Source: Fibrobacter sp. UWEL
GTDB taxonomy: Bacteria > Fibrobacterota > Fibrobacteria > Fibrobacterales > Fibrobacteraceae
Reading direction: 5' to 3'
Assembly: GCF_900142535.1 (NCBI RefSeq)
Contig: NZ_FRBE01000006.1
Span: forward strand, 62,001-126,000
DNA: 64,000 nucleotides
The position numbers and the translations under genes were made by a program. Position 1 is the first letter of the stretch. Every line of letters starts with the position of its first letter. Below the pieces are notes generated by a model. That model saw only the letters and a list, made by a program, of their open reading frames with translations. It made no database searches and was not told the DNA's origin. Positions 10,178 through 48,729 of this stretch are shown piece by piece.

Positions 10178-10951
10178 ATGAAGAATTATTTCGATCTCTC
10201 CGGCCAGGTAGCAGTTGTTACTGGTTGCTCCACTGGTCTCGGCGTTCAGATGGCAAAGGCTCTGGCAAATCAGGGCGCAAAGATTGTTGCAATCGCTCGC
10301 CGTAAGGAAATGATTGAAGCTGTAGCTAAGGAAATTTCCGAAACCTACGGCGTCGAAGCTATCGCCGTTCAGTGCGACATTACCGACACCGCTAAGGTTG
10401 AAGCAGCCGTTGACGAAATCCTCGCCAAGCTGGGCCGCATCGACATCCTGATCAACAACGCTGGTACTGGCGCAGTTGCTCCGGCAGAAGACATCACCGA
10501 CGACCAGCTCAACCACGAAATGAACGTTGACCTGGGCGGTACCTTCAAGATGGCTCGTGCAGTTGCCAAGAAGGCAATGCTCCCGGCAAAGTACGGCCGT
10601 ATCATCAACATTGCCTCCATGTACGGCCTTGTTGGTAACAAGATTTGCGGTTCCGCACCGTACCATGCAGCAAAGGGTGCTGTTGTTAACCTGACCCGCG
10701 CTCTGGCCGCTGAATGGTCCAGCAAGGGCATCAATGTTAACGCAATCTGCCCGGGTTACTTCTACACCCCGCTTACCAAGGAAACTCTCGATACTCCGTT
10801 CTTCCAGCAGAATGCTAAGACTATGATCCCGGCAGAACGCTATGGAAACGAAGGCGAACTTGACACCGCTGCAATCTTCCTTGCATCCAAGGCATCCAGC
10901 TACGTTACCGGCATCATGGTTCCGGTTGACGGCGGCTACACCTGCATGTAA
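10178..10951 (+). CDS. SDR-family NAD(P)-dependent oxidoreductase
   Basis: 257 residues of classical short-chain dehydrogenase. It has the cofactor motif TGCSTGLG near residue 16, NNAG near 92, catalytic Ser in IASMYG, YHAAKGA (Tyr-x-x-x-Lys) and the closing VPVDGGYTCM. It resembles gluconate 5-dehydrogenase and 3-oxoacyl-ACP reductase types; the substrate is uncertain. AAGGA lies 7 bases before the ATG. Codon choice is strongly biased to GCT, GTT and AAG, suggesting high expression. It is a single gene closed by its own terminator. Confidence 0.9.
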   Translation: MKNYFDLSGQVAVVTGCSTGLGVQMAKALANQGAKIVAIARRKEMIEAVAKEISETYGVEAIAVQCDITDTAKVEAAVDEILAKLGRIDILINNAGTGAVAPAEDITDDQLNHEMNVDLGGTFKMARAVAKKAMLPAKYGRIINIASMYGLVGNKICGSAPYHAAKGAVVNLTRALAAEWSSKGINVNAICPGYFYTPLTKETLDTPFFQQNAKTMIPAERYGNEGELDTAAIFLASKASSYVTGIMVPVDGGYTCM

Positions 10952-11013
10952 TGTAGGCTCCAGGTTCGAGGCTCGAGGGATCGGGTTTCAAAAATGGATT
11001 ACGCTTTTAAAGA

Positions 11014-11040
11014 CGCTCGCAGTAATGCGAGCGCCTTTTT
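11014..11040. terminator. intrinsic terminator between the SDR gene and azlD
   Basis: Perfect stem CGCTCGCA/TGCGAGCG with loop GTAA, followed by CCTTTTT. It ends the plus-strand SDR transcript and is positioned to stop the converging azlCD transcript as well. Confidence 0.85.
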
Positions 11041-11044
11041 GCTT

Positions 11045-11368
11045 TTAAACGAGTCGAATAAGGACCATATAGACTGCGGTCCCTACAGCCATGGAAAGAA
11101 ATAGCTGGCGACGCCATATGTGCATCACGGCTGTCGCCACAATGCCTACGATATCGGGAATGCCGTGCATACCTTCCAGCCACTGCACATCTTTCAGGCA
11201 ATAAACCACAAGCATACCGAAAACAGCGAGAGGCAAGGCCTTGCCCAAATACTGGATGTATTTGGGAGTAGGCTTTCCTGCAGGGAAAATGAGGAAAGGC
11301 AAGGCGCGGGTCAGCACCGTCATCAGCGCAAGTATGGCGATGGTTGTGATTTGTTGTTGCGTAGTCAT
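11045..11368 (-). CDS. azlD: branched-chain amino acid export subunit AzlD
   Basis: 107 residues, almost entirely hydrophobic with about four membrane segments ([21 protein letters not shown], and the closing [17 protein letters not shown]). The conserved N-terminal TRALPFL motif and size fit AzlD, the small partner of AzlC. The start overlaps the end of azlC by 4 bases, so the two are translated together. Confidence 0.9.
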
Positions 11369-12060
11369 TTACCGCCCTCAATTTTCTTGCGGAACACAGT
11401 CAGCAGCAAAAGAATTCCAATCATGGAGGGAATCACAAAATACTGACTACCCACTACCAGCAGGCTCAAGGCAGTACATCCAATCCCGATCCACGCCGGA
11501 CGATGTTCCTTTTCCTTTAAGAACTGATCCATAAAGATGGCAACGAACATGGCCGTCACCACAAATTCAAGACCACGAATATCGAAGTTCAAAAGGGAGC
11601 CGAACATATAGCCCATAAATCCGCCGGTAATCCAGTAGGAATAATCCAGCATACTGACCATCAGCATCTCCGTGGGGGTAGACTCGCGGGCATTGTAGTT
11701 AATAGCAAACGTTTCGTCGGACATCCAGAAAATCAGGAAGGGCTTACGCCAGCCCATACCGCGAAAACGATCCAGCATGGAAACGCCATAGAACAAATGA
11801 CGAGCGCCCACCACCAAGGCCATACTCGCGGCACCCAGCGGGTTGAAATTCGCCAGCAACATACCCAAGCCCAGGAATTCCGCAGAGCCACTAAACACAA
11901 ACAGCGCCATGGACAGCGGATACCAATAGCTAAAGCCCATGGATTCCGCAAGCACCCCATAAGTAATGCCCAAAAACCAGTAGCCCGTAAGCACCGGCAA
12001 GGAGCGCTTAAAAGCGACCTTCAGGGAATTCTTAAATGTGGATTGATCGATGGCAGGCAT
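11365..12060 (-). CDS. azlC: branched-chain amino acid permease AzlC
   Basis: 231 residues with several membrane helices. Family hallmarks are the [15 protein letters not shown] segment near the start, FSGSAEF and the GARHLFYG motif, followed by the SDETFA region. With AzlD it forms an exporter in the inner membrane, known in Bacillus for branched-chain amino acids and azaleucine. The neighbouring aminotransferase fits an amino-acid theme but is not in the same transcript. Confidence 0.92.
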
Positions 12061-12125
12061 TGTGGCAAGAATATAGAAATCGTCAATTTTCGTTAGACCA
12101 GAAATAAACCCAATAAGAGCCGACT

Positions 12126-12398
12126 CTAAATATCTTTGGCATTGTTGACCCCGCCCTTCTGAGAAAATTCCAAGATCAGATGTGCAGTTGACTCGATTAC
12201 TTTTTTGTATCGGTCAATTTCACTATCAGAAAATCCGGATATATCTTCCCATGTGTATTGGGGCAGGTAACAAGTTGCGTGATGAAAACAGTCTTTTTCA
12301 TCAGGCTTTTCAATGTACACCTTGACACGGCCATCCTTCATCATCTCGGAATGGACAATTTCAGAATTATCATCTAAGGTCATGAACGGGTACATCAT
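12126..12398 (-). CDS. conserved small hypothetical protein
   Basis: 90 residues (MMYPFMTLDDNSEIVHSEMMKDGRVKVYIEKPDE...). The compact beta-then-helix pattern with a Cys/His-containing centre (DCFHHATCYLPQYTWEDI) looks like a genuine conserved protein rather than a chance frame. No function recognised. Either of the two leading Met codons could be the start. Confidence 0.7.
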   Translation of the reverse strand: MMYPFMTLDDNSEIVHSEMMKDGRVKVYIEKPDEKDCFHHATCYLPQYTWEDISGFSDSEIDRYKKVIESTAHLILEFSQKGGVNNAKDI

Positions 12399-12506
12399 AA
12401 TCGAACTCGCAGCTAATATAGCTTTTCTGCAAGTACTTTTGCAATATTAGGCACTTTCTAAATATGCACGTCCAATGATTGCACCGTTTTATGCTATATT
12501 CGTGAC

Positions 12507-12717
12507 GACATAGTTCCCTGCCGTGAAAGCGGCAGGGAACGCAGGTTTAATTGAGAGTTTTGCTCTTATTCTCTGTCCTGAAACTACCACTTTCAAAAGC
12601 ATACGAGGATAAGGCAGACGCTCACGTCCCATTGGGGCGTGGGCCGTTTGTGCTTATTGTGTGCAAGGATGTGGTAGTCCGCAGGACAGGTAAGCCATTC
12701 GGTACCACGCCTTTTTT
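12507..12717 (+). ncRNA. structured RNA candidate upstream of the restriction-modification gene
   Basis: A 5-prime hairpin (12513-12523 with 12530-12540, 11 bp) is closed by a GAAA-type tetraloop. Then a long rod forms: CTGTCCTG (12573) with CAGGACAG (12682), CTACCAC (12584) with GTGGTAG (12671), GCATAC with GTGTGC, GATAAG with CTTATT, CAGAC with GTTTG, and an 11-bp apical hairpin at 12620-12644. A small hairpin 12689-12706 precedes T6 at 12712-12717. An extended -10 (TGCTATATT, 12492-12500) lies just upstream. Whether it is a free RNA or a leader of the downstream gene is open. No known RNA class was recognised. Confidence 0.65.
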
Positions 12718-42395: not shown

Positions 42396-43424
42396 ATGGC
42401 ATTTAAACCTTTAAAACGCATTAACTGGATGGAAATTTCCGGCCTTTTGGTCGGCGTGTTCCTGACCATTGCCGTTATGGTGTTTGCCATCGTCCTGTAC
42501 ACCAAGTTGTTCACCTCCGGCATGATCGGGGTGGAAGAATACAGACTCCACAGTACTTTCGAAAAGGCATTCGGCCTCCGTCCGGGCACCCGCGTTCAGA
42601 TTAGCGGCGTGGACATCGGTCAAATTGGCGAAGTGGAAGTGGAAGGTGACGGCGTATTCATTGAATTTGTAATCCGCAAACAGTACCAGCCCTGGATTAC
42701 GGACAGCGCCAAGGTGTTCGCCATCCGTGACCAGAACATGATTTCCGCCCGTGTCATTAACATTGACGTTCGTCGCGGTAAAGGTCGAGTTCTCGAAGAT
42801 GGAGACTTCCTTCCCCCGGGACAGGCTCAGGATATCGAAACCGTTCTTGAAACTGCAAACGTCTTGCTGGGTCGTGTGAACACCCTGGTGGACGCCGCCG
42901 ACTCCCTCCTGGGCATGGCCATGGATACGGGAACCACCATCGGTGCTATGTTTGGCTCTCGCGCTCTTTACGACAACTTGAACCGCCAGTTGAACCGAAT
43001 CGACGACATGACCTACGTGGGTAAGAGGGTTCTTTTCCAGACGGCAAACATCATGGATACCCTCCAGGTCCAGATGCCTACCCTCCTGAACAAGGTGGAC
43101 GTGATTACCACGGACGTTGGCGGCCTGATTACCGAACTGAAGCCTGTACCCCAGAAGGTGGACAAGCTTATGGGTGGTGTGGAAGACCTGATGGGCAACG
43201 TTGGCGGTCTCATGGGCAAGCTTGATGTATCTCTCAACAAGGCCGACAACATGCTGGCAGAAGTGGGAGAACTGACATCCGGTCTGGGCGATTTTATGGA
43301 AGCTACGGAACAGACCCTCCAGAGTGCAGACGACCTGATGAACGGCCTGTCCGACATGTGGATTATTCGTAGGTCCATACCCAGCAAGGATTCCGTACCC
43401 TTCATGGTGGAGACCCTATGGTAA
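42396..43424 (+). CDS. MlaD/MCE family protein
   Basis: 342 residues. An N-terminal membrane anchor (SGLLVGVFLTIAVMVFAIVLYTKLF) precedes an MCE domain (about 45-125: FEKAFGLRPGTRVQISGVDIGQIGEVEVEGDGV), followed by a long amphipathic helix with repeated MGGV/LMGN spacing. It is a periplasmic lipid-transport component. No MlaE permease or MlaF ATPase gene lies beside it, so those must be elsewhere. Overlaps the next gene by 7 bases. Confidence 0.88.
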   Translation: MAFKPLKRINWMEISGLLVGVFLTIAVMVFAIVLYTKLFTSGMIGVEEYRLHSTFEKAFGLRPGTRVQISGVDIGQIGEVEVEGDGVFIEFVIRKQYQPWITDSAKVFAIRDQNMISARVINIDVRRGKGRVLEDGDFLPPGQAQDIETVLETANVLLGRVNTLVDAADSLLGMAMDTGTTIGAMFGSRALYDNLNRQLNRIDDMTYVGKRVLFQTANIMDTLQVQMPTLLNKVDVITTDVGGLITELKPVPQKVDKLMGGVEDLMGNVGGLMGKLDVSLNKADNMLAEVGELTSGLGDFMEATEQTLQSADDLMNGLSDMWIIRRSIPSKDSVPFMVETLW

Positions 43425-44206
43425 TCCACCGCTCCAAGATTCGTTACTTTGCAGTTGCTGCAGCACTTGCGCTCCTGGCCGCTACGGACGTTTCCGCAAG
43501 CGAGTCCGGCATCCAGTCTTTCAGAGCGCAGAAGTCCATTAATGCAGGAAAGTTCGCCCGAGGCTACGGCCAGCTGGAACGAGCTCTGCTGGCTAGCCGC
43601 AAGGAAGCCGATCTTCGTGCCGAAGGTCGCATATTGATTTCCATGGCCCAGATCCGCACCATGAGTCTCGATCTGGACTTTGCAGATTCCCTCCTTTCCA
43701 ACGTCCGCAAGGATATTCTGGATACCAACACCCTTATTCTCCTGAATAAGGCCAAGATGGCAATCGCCAACGAAAGAGGTAACTACAAGGAAGTGGTGAG
43801 CACTTGCTCCTCCGTAGAAAAGGAACTTCTCTCCAAGGCGGACAAGCCTGCTCAGGCAGCCTTCTATGGCGAGTGCGCCATCGCGCAAGCTGCAGCCCAC
43901 CAGGATTATAGCGAAGCCCTGAAGATGGCAGGCAAGCGTTCCGATAAGAGTGGCGGTTTCTACGCCCTTACCGCAGCCCGCGTTGCGGAACTGAGCGGAA
44001 ACATAAGCGAAGCGGATTCCCTCTATAAGGTTGCCGAGAAGAAATCCATCGAAGGAAACAAGCCCTACAATACTGCAACCATTCTTTACTACCGTTCCAA
44101 CCTGAAGGTTACTCCCAAGGACGAAGCGGCAGACCTGAAGATGCGCTGCAAGAATGCTTTTGAGCTGATGGGTCTTCCCAACAACGCAAAGCGCTGCGCA
44201 GAATAA
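43418..44206 (+). CDS. secreted TPR-like hypothetical protein coupled to MlaD
   Basis: 262 residues with signal peptide (YFAVAAALALLAATDVSA) and an all-helical body with TPR-like repeats (FRAQKSINAGKFARGYGQLERALL, ADSLYKVAEKKSIEGNKPYN). The start lies within the last codons of the MlaD gene, so a role with that transport system is likely. No named family recognised. Confidence 0.75.
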   Translation: MVIHRSKIRYFAVAAALALLAATDVSASESGIQSFRAQKSINAGKFARGYGQLERALLASRKEADLRAEGRILISMAQIRTMSLDLDFADSLLSNVRKDILDTNTLILLNKAKMAIANERGNYKEVVSTCSSVEKELLSKADKPAQAAFYGECAIAQAAAHQDYSEALKMAGKRSDKSGGFYALTAARVAELSGNISEADSLYKVAEKKSIEGNKPYNTATILYYRSNLKVTPKDEAADLKMRCKNAFELMGLPNNAKRCAE

Positions 44207-44219
44207 TTTAGAGCAACAC

Positions 44220-46160
44220 TTACTGCATCCCTAACAACAGAGAATCCAGCCGACTAGTTAGCTGGGCAGCGCCTTCTGTGGACAGGTGGTCCGTATCGTG
44301 AGCCATTTGATCTGAGTAGTCATGACTTCCCATCTTATTTTCATCCATCACCACAAAATTCTGATACTGCTCCGCCATAGCAAACACGGAATCTCGAACC
44401 CATTGGGCTGTAGACCTCTGAAGTCCATGACAACCCCAAGAATCGGTTTGTGCATATTCCGGATTCTGCGGAAAAATCACACCCACCACAGAAATATTTC
44501 TTTTTTGAGTTTCTATCAAAAATTTCCGCAAGAGATCCAAGTTCCACTGGATTCGATCTGGATAAAGTTCATCCCAGTTCACCATTCCTTCAATAATAGC
44601 AGGGCCCCAACCTTCTATGTCCGTGTCAGCGAATCCTCTAGAAGCCCCATAAACCATCCAGGAGTATTCTGATGCAGGAAAGGAGTGTTCCACAGCCTCT
44701 ATAAATCCATTCGGCATTCCGTATTTCCAATAATAATGCGACGAATCATAAGAGTATCCCGGAACAACATCAAAGATCATCTTCGAAAAATCGGTCTTTA
44801 TCTGCCACAAATCAAAATCAAGAGAAATGACGATAGCCTTTAAATTCGGAAGAGCGTTAAAACCATAGTCCCTAGCGAATCGAATGGAAGCGTTCATATC
44901 ATTATAAGCATGTCCCATATTCATGGCATAACCCACAGTCAAAGAATCAGGAATAACACCATTGGCCATACGAGAGCTGCCCACGCAGAAATACTCTATT
45001 TGCTCAGCATTTTTCCACATTAGTTCCATCTTGACACGAAGAATCTCGCCGGCAACATTTCCGCCAGGTAGCAAGTACACGCCTGCACTATCTAAATCCA
45101 CATCCTTAGGAATGTGGAATTCCGTGCTTACAGACCATAGGCAGGGATGCCAAAGTTCATCCCCTTGAGCAAGTTCCAAAATGGAAGAATCCGACATATT
45201 CACTACGGCAAGCTTCTTATGGGATCCATTAACACCCGTCAATGAAGCCACTGCCAACGGAGCGTTATCAGCATCAGTGTTATTATTCCACAAAGCCCAT
45301 TCGCTATGATCAAAACTGTATCCCTCTGGAGCAGGGATCATCCTTGTTAAACGCCCCGCAGAATCCGCTTCCAGAATTCTTTCATGAACGCCATATTTTT
45401 CTCCTGAAAAAGCGGTCCCAGTCTTTCCACCAAAATCGAGAAAGAGAGTACGCCTCTGCACGTCCTTTGACAAGCTTACATTACAAGCCTGCTCCCCATT
45501 ATACCACAGAGAATCTTTTCCATCAACTCTAGCCCTCAAAAGGCGAGCTCCTGTCACGGCGAGTTGATTGTCCGAACTTACACCACCATGGAAGGCTCCA
45601 TCAAACAATTTTTTAGGGGTTCCAAACTTACCATTCACAAAGGGTACCTGCCATGTACTTTGCTTCAGGAAAGCAGTGCCATCCCTATTATCATTTGCAC
45701 TTGTCACATAGACAATCACGGTATCGCCAATATCAAGGACCTTCCAGCGGGGAATTACCGCATTCTCCACATTCAGTTTCACCAAGTCGCTTCCTGCACT
45801 ATCAAGATTACGCACATACACGCTGGATACGGTACCCGTCCCCTCCATGCCCGTACAGAAAGCAACCTTCCTGCCATCAGGAGAAACATCCGGATGATAA
45901 GCATCCAGTTCATCTTGAATCTCTACAATAGTAGGGTTCGCGCTGGAATAATTGACAAAGGCAAGGTTTCCCGTCACATCATTTCGAAAAACCAGTTTAG
46001 AATCAAATGTTCCTGTCCTTTTTTTCACGGACAGTGAACTAGCCAAAAGCAATATGGGATTAGATACCTCATTACCGTTGCTTCCTAACCAGGTGGGATT
46101 CGGGATTTTGCCATAGGCCACTCGAAACCCTATATAATTAGCACGGGATGAAGAAGTCAC
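44220..46160 (-). CDS. TIGR02171-family lipoprotein, C-terminal part after a frameshift
   Basis: This frame continues the protein that starts at 46986. Removing one G from the G8 tract (46218-46225) yields KGGSFRNEALRLHLFRRGDVYAV joined to SSSRANYIGFRVAYG, the normal end of a sulfatase-modifying-factor domain. Next come TolB/PD40-like propeller repeats (AYHPDVSPDGRKVAFCT), then an SGNH-like module (VGSSRMANG, and HDTDHLSTEGA near the end). The joined protein would be about 920 residues, the size expected for TIGR02171. Family function unknown. The GTG at 46160 is probably not a real start. Confidence 0.8.
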   Translation of the reverse strand: MTSSSRANYIGFRVAYGKIPNPTWLGSNGNEVSNPILLLASSLSVKKRTGTFDSKLVFRNDVTGNLAFVNYSSANPTIVEIQDELDAYHPDVSPDGRKVAFCTGMEGTGTVSSVYVRNLDSAGSDLVKLNVENAVIPRWKVLDIGDTVIVYVTSANDNRDGTAFLKQSTWQVPFVNGKFGTPKKLFDGAFHGGVSSDNQLAVTGARLLRARVDGKDSLWYNGEQACNVSLSKDVQRRTLFLDFGGKTGTAFSGEKYGVHERILEADSAGRLTRMIPAPEGYSFDHSEWALWNNNTDADNAPLAVASLTGVNGSHKKLAVVNMSDSSILELAQGDELWHPCLWSVSTEFHIPKDVDLDSAGVYLLPGGNVAGEILRVKMELMWKNAEQIEYFCVGSSRMANGVIPDSLTVGYAMNMGHAYNDMNASIRFARDYGFNALPNLKAIVISLDFDLWQIKTDFSKMIFDVVPGYSYDSSHYYWKYGMPNGFIEAVEHSFPASEYSWMVYGASRGFADTDIEGWGPAIIEGMVNWDELYPDRIQWNLDLLRKFLIETQKRNISVVGVIFPQNPEYAQTDSWGCHGLQRSTAQWVRDSVFAMAEQYQNFVVMDENKMGSHDYSDQMAHDTDHLSTEGAAQLTSRLDSLLLGMQ

Positions 46161-46203
46161 AGCATATACATCTCCACGTCGAAACAGATGTAGACGGAGC
46201 GCC

Positions 46204-46986
46204 TCATTTCGAAAACTCCCCCCCCTTCACCACGCGAATTCCTTGACTTCCCCCATCCTGAGCACCCACAAAATCACTTACGGAATGTTCCCTGAAAGAA
46301 CCCATCCAGTCATTCACCCACTCCATGGCGTTCCCCTTCATATCGCAAACCGAAGCAGATGATGAAACGCTTCCAATAGAACAAACTGGATGGAGGGTTC
46401 CATCTGAATTTTCCATTGTCCATCCAGTTCCTGACAACCAATCTTGAGCAGCAACCAACATCCACTCCGATTCCGTAGGAAGTCGAATTCCTTCTCTTTC
46501 AGGATTGAATACAAGTCCCTCAAGATAGTCGCAGTATCCATCCTCTCCAAAAGAAGCTGAACTATAGCTATAGACCGAATCAAGGCCAAAACGTTTACTT
46601 AATGCATTGCAATATAGTACTGCATCATAGTAAGAAACATTCACTACAGGCAAATCATCACCGTCGCAGTTTCCCCGATCCATTAAGGAACGAAAACTAC
46701 CGCAAGTGACTTCACTTTTCCCTATGGAAAAATCATAGGAAAACTTCGCCTTCATCAAAGGGCGTTCCTTAGCAAGAGCATCTTCAGAGTTCGTCCCCAT
46801 AAAGACAAACCGGCCCGAAGAAGCAACTTTTAGAAAGCCCGCATATTTATCATCAAGAACAATTTCTAGAGGTCCCGCAATCATATCGGGATCATCGCTA
46901 GATGAAGAAAGATGACACCCCCAAGAGGTAAACGCCAGAAGATTTGCCAGGAAAAAAATAGCCCTATTTTTCAGACGGAACTTCAT
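46204..46986 (-). CDS. TIGR02171-family lipoprotein, N-terminal part (SUMF1-like domain), cut short by a frameshift
   Basis: 260 residues as written. Signal peptide with lipobox FTSWGC, then a formylglycine-generating-enzyme-like domain: SGRFVFMGTN, FSIGKSEVTCGSFRSLM, PVVNVSYYDAVLYCNALS, RLPTESEWMLVAAQDW and MKGNAMEWVNDWM. It stops right after VVKGGEFSK, where family members continue. As read here it would be a short lipoprotein lacking the propeller and SGNH-like part. It overlaps the upstream gene by 23 bases. Confidence 0.82.
   Translation of the reverse strand: MKFRLKNRAIFFLANLLAFTSWGCHLSSSSDDPDMIAGPLEIVLDDKYAGFLKVASSGRFVFMGTNSEDALAKERPLMKAKFSYDFSIGKSEVTCGSFRSLMDRGNCDGDDLPVVNVSYYDAVLYCNALSKRFGLDSVYSYSSASFGEDGYCDYLEGLVFNPEREGIRLPTESEWMLVAAQDWLSGTGWTMENSDGTLHPVCSIGSVSSSASVCDMKGNAMEWVNDWMGSFREHSVSDFVGAQDGGSQGIRVVKGGEFSK
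46218..46225 (-). other. G8 homopolymer causing the frameshift, phase-variation candidate
   Basis: On the coding strand the gene reads GTG AAG then eight G residues. With eight the frame ends at TGA six codons later; with seven the frame runs through to 44220. It is an out-of-frame tract in a surface lipoprotein gene. A sequencing error in the homopolymer is the main alternative. Confidence 0.75.
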
Positions 46987-47835: not shown

Positions 47836-48729
47836 TTAGATTCGGCAGGCTTCAGCCAAGCGTTCCAGAGCGTCAACGCATTCCGTAGCAAATGCTTCCG
47901 GCTTGCCGCTACGCTGGTAGGCAAAGTTCAGACCGCTGGAGCTGTTCAGCACATGGAACTGACGCTTGCCACCACCGTTCTTGATTGCGGTAAGAACTGT
48001 CTTGGCGTCACCGCCCTGACCACCCGGCACACCAGGAATGGAAACACCCGGAATCAGGAAGGGTATTTCGTGCTGGTGAGCAACGCAGTAAGCGGTAATC
48101 TTTTCCAGTTCTTCGGGATGGGTTGCGCCAACCACAGCACCGAAGAAGCCCTTGTCACCGTCCCATTCGAAAATCTTGTCGGCAACCTTGTAGAAGGCTT
48201 CGTTCACGTCACGAGGATCATCGCTACCGATTACAGGCATATCCTGGAAATCGTGAGCGCCCTTATTGCTGGTACGGAGCAGAACGTAGGCGCCATTTTC
48301 GGAATTTTCACGCAGGAAGGGATTCACGGAATCGGAACCCATCCAGGGAGAAACGGTCACCACGTCAGCCTTGTAAACGTCAAAAGCAGCGGTAGCATAA
48401 GCAGCGCTGGACTTACCGATGTCACCACGCTTTGCATCCAGAATAACCGGAATACCAGCGCTACGATAATCAGCAATGAGCTGCTGCAGCACCAGCATAG
48501 CCTGCACGCTGACGCATTCGTAGTAAGCACTATTGGGCTTGACTACTGCGGGCAGCACGTTACGCTTCAGGCAGCATTCCAGGAGTTCGGAATAAAAACG
48601 CTTGATCTTGTCTTCGGCGGTGCCATCAGGGCAGCAAGGGTCAATGAGCTTCAGGACAGGGTCCATGCCCATGCAGACCGGGTTACCGCATTTAGCGACA
48701 CGCTGTTCAAGGCGATCATGAAAATTCAT
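47836..48729 (-). CDS. pyrF: orotidine 5'-phosphate decarboxylase, type 2
   Basis: 297 residues. The active-site string VILDAKRGDIGKSSAAYA gives the Asp-x-Lys-x-x-Asp catalytic motif, with VVKPNSAYYE before and LIPGVSIPGVPGGQGGD later, the long (PyrF type 2) form. It makes UMP in pyrimidine synthesis. Twelve bases separate it from the RNA methyltransferase gene. Confidence 0.95.
   Translation of the reverse strand: MNFHDRLEQRVAKCGNPVCMGMDPVLKLIDPCCPDGTAEDKIKRFYSELLECCLKRNVLPAVVKPNSAYYECVSVQAMLVLQQLIADYRSAGIPVILDAKRGDIGKSSAAYATAAFDVYKADVVTVSPWMGSDSVNPFLRENSENGAYVLLRTSNKGAHDFQDMPVIGSDDPRDVNEAFYKVADKIFEWDGDKGFFGAVVGATHPEELEKITAYCVAHQHEIPFLIPGVSIPGVPGGQGGDAKTVLTAIKNGGGKRQFHVLNSSSGLNFAYQRSGKPEAFATECVDALERLAEACRI

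Follow-up and report, generated by a model that had tools for sequence, protein, structure and literature searches.

The locus and its two reading frames

The window, a stretch of 64,000 nucleotides on contig NZ_FRBE01000006.1 of Fibrobacter sp. UWEL (genome G000, 3.53 Mb in 62 contigs), contains a run of eight C on the plus strand at positions 46218-46225, which reads as eight G (G8) on the coding, minus strand of a lipoprotein gene of the TIGR02171 family. The features of this locus, in window coordinates, are the following.

43418..44206, plus strand: convergent neighbor; the left border of the insertion described below lies just past its stop (about 44209)
44220..46226, minus strand: second frame, open for 668 codons plus stop; remainder of the TIGR02171 protein, undecayed
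44223..45080, minus strand: domain with an SGNH/GDSL-hydrolase fold in the AlphaFold2 model; lost in the 8-G frame
45126..46052, minus strand: residues 59-367 of the AlphaFold2 model, a TolB-like beta-propeller domain; lost in the 8-G frame
46110..46226, minus strand: final part of the SUMF1-like domain (RGGSFRN...NYIGFRVAYG), from homologue alignment; lost in the 8-G frame
46204..46986, minus strand: ORF1, the N-terminal piece, 260 amino acids, ending VVKGGEFSK*; TIGR02171 positions 5-248 and PF03781
46207..46226, minus strand: interval for the frame transition, 20 bases including the G8 run, bounded by TGA 46229-46227 and TGA 46206-46204
46218..46225, minus strand: G8 run (C8 on plus) at conserved K-G-G-S codons
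46964..47815, minus strand: upstream gene, conserved in the genus; its 3' end extends 23 bp into the start of the lipoprotein gene
47836..48729, minus strand: pyrF (orotidine-phosphate decarboxylase-like), synteny anchor in the same direction; its name comes from reading the sequence rather than from a family match

ORF1 begins with a signal peptide and a lipobox cysteine (Cys24), followed by an FGE-sulfatase/SUMF1-like domain, and ends at VVKGGEFSK because of the eighth G, with its stop at the TGA at 46206-46204. The second frame, whose upstream limit is the TGA at 46229-46227, begins RGGSFRNEALRL, runs into NYIGFRVAYG, and stops at 44222-44220. Since these two TGA codons close ORF1 and the second frame, the change of frame must fall within 46226-46207. 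Given that homologues read K-G-G-S-F/Y at that point (K-G-[GS]-[SC]-[FYW] in 11 of 11 aligned), we place the shift inside the G run. The original prediction had described this arrangement, and the frames and coordinates were as it had given them.

The lipoprotein gene is a species-specific insertion, found only in Fibrobacter sp. UWEL among the 21 genomes compared. None of the 20 relatives has a TIGR02171 gene at this locus; there, the pyrF-like anchor and the upstream, convergent, and mlaD-like genes are adjacent. The gene is likewise missing from the locus of the closest relative examined (G011, 86% identity in a neighboring protein), which has a terminator-like hairpin between the convergent pair. 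In Fibrobacter sp. UWEL, the lipoprotein gene (44209-46967) replaces that hairpin.

Family, domains, and state of the two halves

Assignment of the gene to the TIGR02171 lipoproteins, also part of the original prediction, was borne out by matches of both ORFs to the NCBIfam profile (Fb_sc_TIGR02171). ORF1 matched positions 5-248 with 248.9 bits, while the 646-amino-acid ORF that a GTG at 46160 opens in the second frame matched positions 267-909 with 848 bits, by itself above the cut-off of 544.35 bits. In a genome-wide search, the two pieces covered profile positions 5-251 and 244-909. A single continuous frame of about 910 codons, as in other TIGR02171 copies, is absent here, being broken at the G8 run. 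The original prediction had pointed to the paralogues in the same genome for comparison; there are six further full-length copies, and all are intact. A 673-amino-acid relative of the family, encoded in one frame at 10560-12527 of another contig (L008, G000:C24), lacks the propeller but has the N-terminal domain and, at its C terminus, the SGNH part.

What the frameshift removes can be read from the domains. ORF1 retains an incomplete SUMF1/FGE-sulfatase-like domain (PF03781, E value of 7.7e-24), which by sequence profile matched Treponema variable protein 1 (2y3c, E value of 1.7e-18) and, more weakly, PorK/GldK (about 1e-5 for PorK). We modeled the downstream half with AlphaFold2 from the window and family sequences, obtaining a mean pLDDT of 85.6 for the whole half and 92.9 for its last 286 residues. 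The predicted propeller resembles TolB (2w8b; Z score of 22.6 over 255 residues, rmsd of 3.3). A fold search with the whole half listed only propellers; a separate model of the C-terminal domain, searched by itself, resembles PAF-acetylhydrolase (1wab; Z score of 14.7 over 191 residues, rmsd of 3.4), and its fold matches include DltD and the O-acetyltransferases PatB and OatA. Invariant residues of this SGNH-fold domain are GSS (44973-44981) and a His (44286-44288). A shared fold is not proof of activity, and a surface-acting esterase or acyltransferase is our simplest guess for what this domain may be.

We asked whether the two pieces might be separate genes, with the second starting at its own GTG (46160) and working alone. 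That start does yield an ORF of 646 residues, but its product would have no signal peptide or lipobox, the SUMF1-like domain would be cut 20-odd residues before its end, and no homologue is so arranged. On these grounds we rejected the two-gene arrangement, to which we give next to no credence.

The claim that everything downstream is intact held up as well. Of the near-invariant residues, defined as at least 90% conserved across 66 intact TIGR02171 copies, 137 of the 140 in the downstream half are retained, where intact copies have a median of 97%; in ORF1, 37 of 44 are retained (84%; range in intact copies, 72 to 100%). Signs of a pseudogene, namely, additional inactivating mutations or conserved positions that have been lost, were sought in the downstream half and none were found, its 668 codons being free of stops; decay elsewhere in this frame, which had been named as evidence against a switch, is thus absent. 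The nearest members of the family are about 50% identical to the split gene, and its third-position GC is 0.38-0.42 versus 0.49-0.52 in the other TIGR02171 copies of the genome. Since the downstream half is undecayed, the frame break is recent, or reversible, or not real.

A break that is not real would be a sequencing or assembly error, the true genome having seven G and an intact gene. The freedom of the downstream frame from any decay fits such an error, and homopolymers are classic sites of indel errors. However, other G8 runs lie in intact genes (C1:319151, in a 715-amino-acid frame, and C25:16323), many A/T runs of 6-8 lie within intact genes of the window, and the six other family copies are unbroken, so that the assembly has no visible homopolymer problem. 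We consider an error unlikely and treat it as a minor rival.

The K-G-G motif and G runs in the genome and genus

We measured the longest G run beside the K-G-G motif in a census of 177 distinct copies from fetched loci. It was 2-6 in 174 copies, 7 in one (L294, in frame), 8 in the window gene, and 10 in one (L265), and three of the four runs of at least seven G around the 177 copies were located at the motif itself. L265 is the TIGR02171 gene of the Fibrobacter succinogenes MAG RUG10650 (CACWJY010000014.1). Its G10 run (L265:3003-3012) gives the motif AAG GGG GGG GGG TAT, which is in frame over 938 codons, and the protein is 45% identical to the downstream half of the window gene, being a different family copy. 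A search of 80 genomes with the pattern GTNGTNAARGGGGGGG matched only the window gene and, by chance, an intergenic site in G009; it missed L265 because L265 reads V-I-K.

Codon usage at the motif indicates how such runs could arise. AAG was used in 118 of 167 copies and GGG in 32/167 and 20/167, from which about 2.7 G7 runs per 167 copies are predicted by chance, and GGG-GGG pairs are not avoided. Ordinary codon choice can thus produce G7 at the motif, and a seed run needs no selection; G8 exceeds that by a single base. Only about 0.02 copies with G10 would be expected by codon choice (an estimate), and the run in L265 looks like run growth. As far as the sequence goes, this hints that the motif site is used or at least may lengthen by slippage.

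Apart from three copies cut by locus ends, the window gene was the only one with a downstream frame cut close upstream of the motif. No frameshift at the motif was found in the other census copies, and the shift site is thus not conserved in the family. This bears on programmed recoding, by which ribosomal +1 frameshifting or transcriptional slippage would let the 8-G gene yield a certain amount of full-length product. One frame meets the other at the G run, and eight bases falls among the homopolymer lengths given for transcriptional slippage, but such slippage occurs mostly on A or T runs (PMC3711429). Furthermore, a +1 shift would be required, whereas -1 is the common kind, and no other family copy needs recoding. 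Given that the site is not conserved and that no other copy is shifted, programmed frameshifting was rejected as the main reading; we think recoding highly improbable, and even together with the two-gene arrangement it would account for very little.

In the window, the G8 run is the sole G/C run longer than six, and by itself it is not above chance (one match versus a mean of 2.1 in dinucleotide shuffles). The genome as a whole has 12 runs of at least eight G, giving 19 overlapping G8 matches, versus about 115 matches scaled from the window shuffles, so such runs are depleted. Only the window's run breaks a coding frame; two others sit in the intact frames named above, and the remainder are intergenic or immediately before start codons. 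Both mutS and mutL are present and intact in the genome. Runs of G9-G11 immediately ahead of a start codon, following a stop or a spacer, were seen at G000:C15:63967 and G000:C2:266889 and in L133, L150, and L154, where they would act as, or displace, a Shine-Dalgarno sequence.

Almost all Fibrobacter genomes have runs of G9-G12, and most of the 119 runs that we inspected are intergenic. In a run-by-run count in five genomes, lengths of 9, 10, 11, and 12 fell off slowly (17:12:8:1). Two intergenic G/C runs of 15 and 17, at L242 (G046:C3:223978) and L249 (G037:C14:43574), are far beyond the others. We called runs on or off by the length of the open frame, a measure that overcalls "off" in intergenic DNA, and kept only those with sensible proteins or Pfam matches. 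Acyl_transf_3 genes of three species carry such runs, with G11 out of frame in L140 (G005:C8:93342) and G10 in frame in L143 (G004:C1:620291) and L216 (G042:C1:1700686), the position of the tract differing among the three. From their sequences, these are candidate phase-variable O-acetyltransferases. The C-terminal piece downstream of the run in L140 is too short for a significant match, although it shows a weak alignment to the C termini of other acyltransferases, and a search for relatives of this acyltransferase returned only distant ones. Hexapeptide transferases carry G10 in frame (L156, G008:C12:157689) and out of frame (L227, G044:C3:8855), and a GDPD-family gene carries G12 in frame (L186, G036:C2:101773). 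Runs of G9 are in frame in four Fib_succ_major-type lipoproteins and one other large protein (L157, L193, L187, L247, and L130), those of L157 and L193 lying within one codon of the same place. This pattern resembles that of contingency loci and raises the prior for switching at the window gene, although it is something that we noticed and not an enrichment result.

Origin of the break and comparison with known systems

The best reading, in our view, is that the break is an incidental, recent +1 slip, real and revertible, and we hold it with about even confidence. The starting state would have been G7, present by codon choice at the K-G-G-S codons (AAG GGG GGG AGT), and we infer that slippage in replication added one G, shifting the frame of an otherwise intact TIGR02171 gene. 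In the state assembled here, the gene would be off, making at most a truncated lipoprotein of 260 residues with an incomplete SUMF1-like domain and losing the TolB-like propeller and the SGNH-fold domain. Judging from its two frames, the gene would be one slip from full length, as the original prediction had it; a single reverse slip would restore it, and low-rate switching of this allele is possible, though there is no sign that the run has been preserved for that purpose.

The main rival is phase variation proper, which was the central proposal of the original prediction. Under it, the G run serves as a contingency tract whose length changes at high frequency, the full lipoprotein is made by cells with 7 or 10 G and not by those with 8 or 9 G, and it is an off state that was assembled. 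G10 in frame at the same codons of another Fibrobacter genome (L265) and G7 in frame in L294 fit this proposal, as do the clustering of long runs at the K-G-G motif in the census and the long coding-strand G runs of relatives in Acyl_transf_3, hexapeptide transferase, and GDPD genes. The product is a lipoprotein, the usual target class. Within meningococcal genomes, most runs of at least eight G are variable (PMC5084427); runs of this length also vary in C. jejuni NCTC 11168, and at least seven G is a usable working cut-off for Campylobacter (PMC6321876). The window gene has such a homopolymer, of at least 7-8 G, inside a reading frame with an intact alternative frame. However, that same experience puts G8 at the threshold, the low end of the switching range. 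At most six G are present in 174 of 177 motif copies, the genome has only 12 runs of at least eight G, mostly intergenic, and mutS and mutL are intact. With an orthologue at the locus in 0 of 20 relatives, there is also no sign that the tract has persisted. Phase variation is therefore plausible, given the G10 of L265 and the G runs of the genus in surface-modification genes, but switching is unproven, and an ordinary recent frameshift fits equally well. We regard phase variation as a real but minority possibility.

A broader version, which we offer tentatively and with some doubt, is that poly-G contingency tracts in Fibrobacter switch surface acylation, through genes of the O-acetyltransferase type that carry G10-G12 in a number of species and through TIGR02171 lipoproteins at the K-G-G motif. 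The G8 of the window would then be an off allele and the G10 of L265 an on allele. A literature search with little coverage of subscription journals found no paper on TIGR02171, homopolymeric tracts, or slipped-strand mispairing in Fibrobacter, and within the same limits, judging by title, no report of phase variation in Fibrobacter was found. As far as we found, then, poly-G contingency tracts have not been described before in Fibrobacter. If the run switches, it would bring phase variation to a dominant fiber-degrading genus of the rumen, suggesting that surface chemistry varies under stochastic control, as under phage or protozoan pressure or in adhesion to fiber. Even without switching, the locus would illustrate how a G run that codon usage places at a conserved motif turns into a hotspot of mutation within a large family of paralogues.

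Among known systems, the N-terminal domain of the window gene matches by profile the variable protein 1 of Treponema denticola (2y3c) and PorK/GldK, which have the SUMF1/C-type-lectin fold. Unlike the Treponema protein, the window gene has neither a template repeat nor a reverse transcriptase nearby, and retroelement variation is not indicated. Both reverse transcriptase matches found in the genome lie on other contigs (C5 and C1). We considered whether the C5 element, which serves a different gene, could diversify the window lipoprotein and set this aside as improbable. That element (L279, at about 181.8-185.5 kb of G000:C5, outside the window) is a textbook diversity-generating retroelement of the same genome. 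Its parts are an ORF for the reverse transcriptase (PF00078), a lipoprotein of the Fib_succ_major family (PF09603) that carries the variable repeat, and an Asn-rich template repeat, and 28 of 31 mismatches between template and variable repeats are at template adenines.

The poly-G contingency genes of Campylobacter, Helicobacter, and Neisseria share with the window gene a coding-strand G run in a surface-type gene that is out of frame, with the intact frame one base away. They differ in that the window run is short, a single base beyond what codon choice yields, with mismatch repair genes present, and in that reports of phase variation were not found for the phylum of Fibrobacter. Compared with the TIGR02171 lipoproteins, both halves of the window gene match the profile end to end, with the lipoprotein signal and the FGE-sulfatase-like, TolB-like propeller, and SGNH-fold domains of the family. 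Unlike them, the gene is split by one extra G, is about 50% identical to its nearest relatives, and stands alone in a housekeeping locus, versus a tandem cluster such as that on C12. The closest parallel to the run itself is L265, where a G run occupies exactly the same K-G-G codons; in contrast to the window gene, that run has 10 G and is in frame, in a full-length and different copy of the family.
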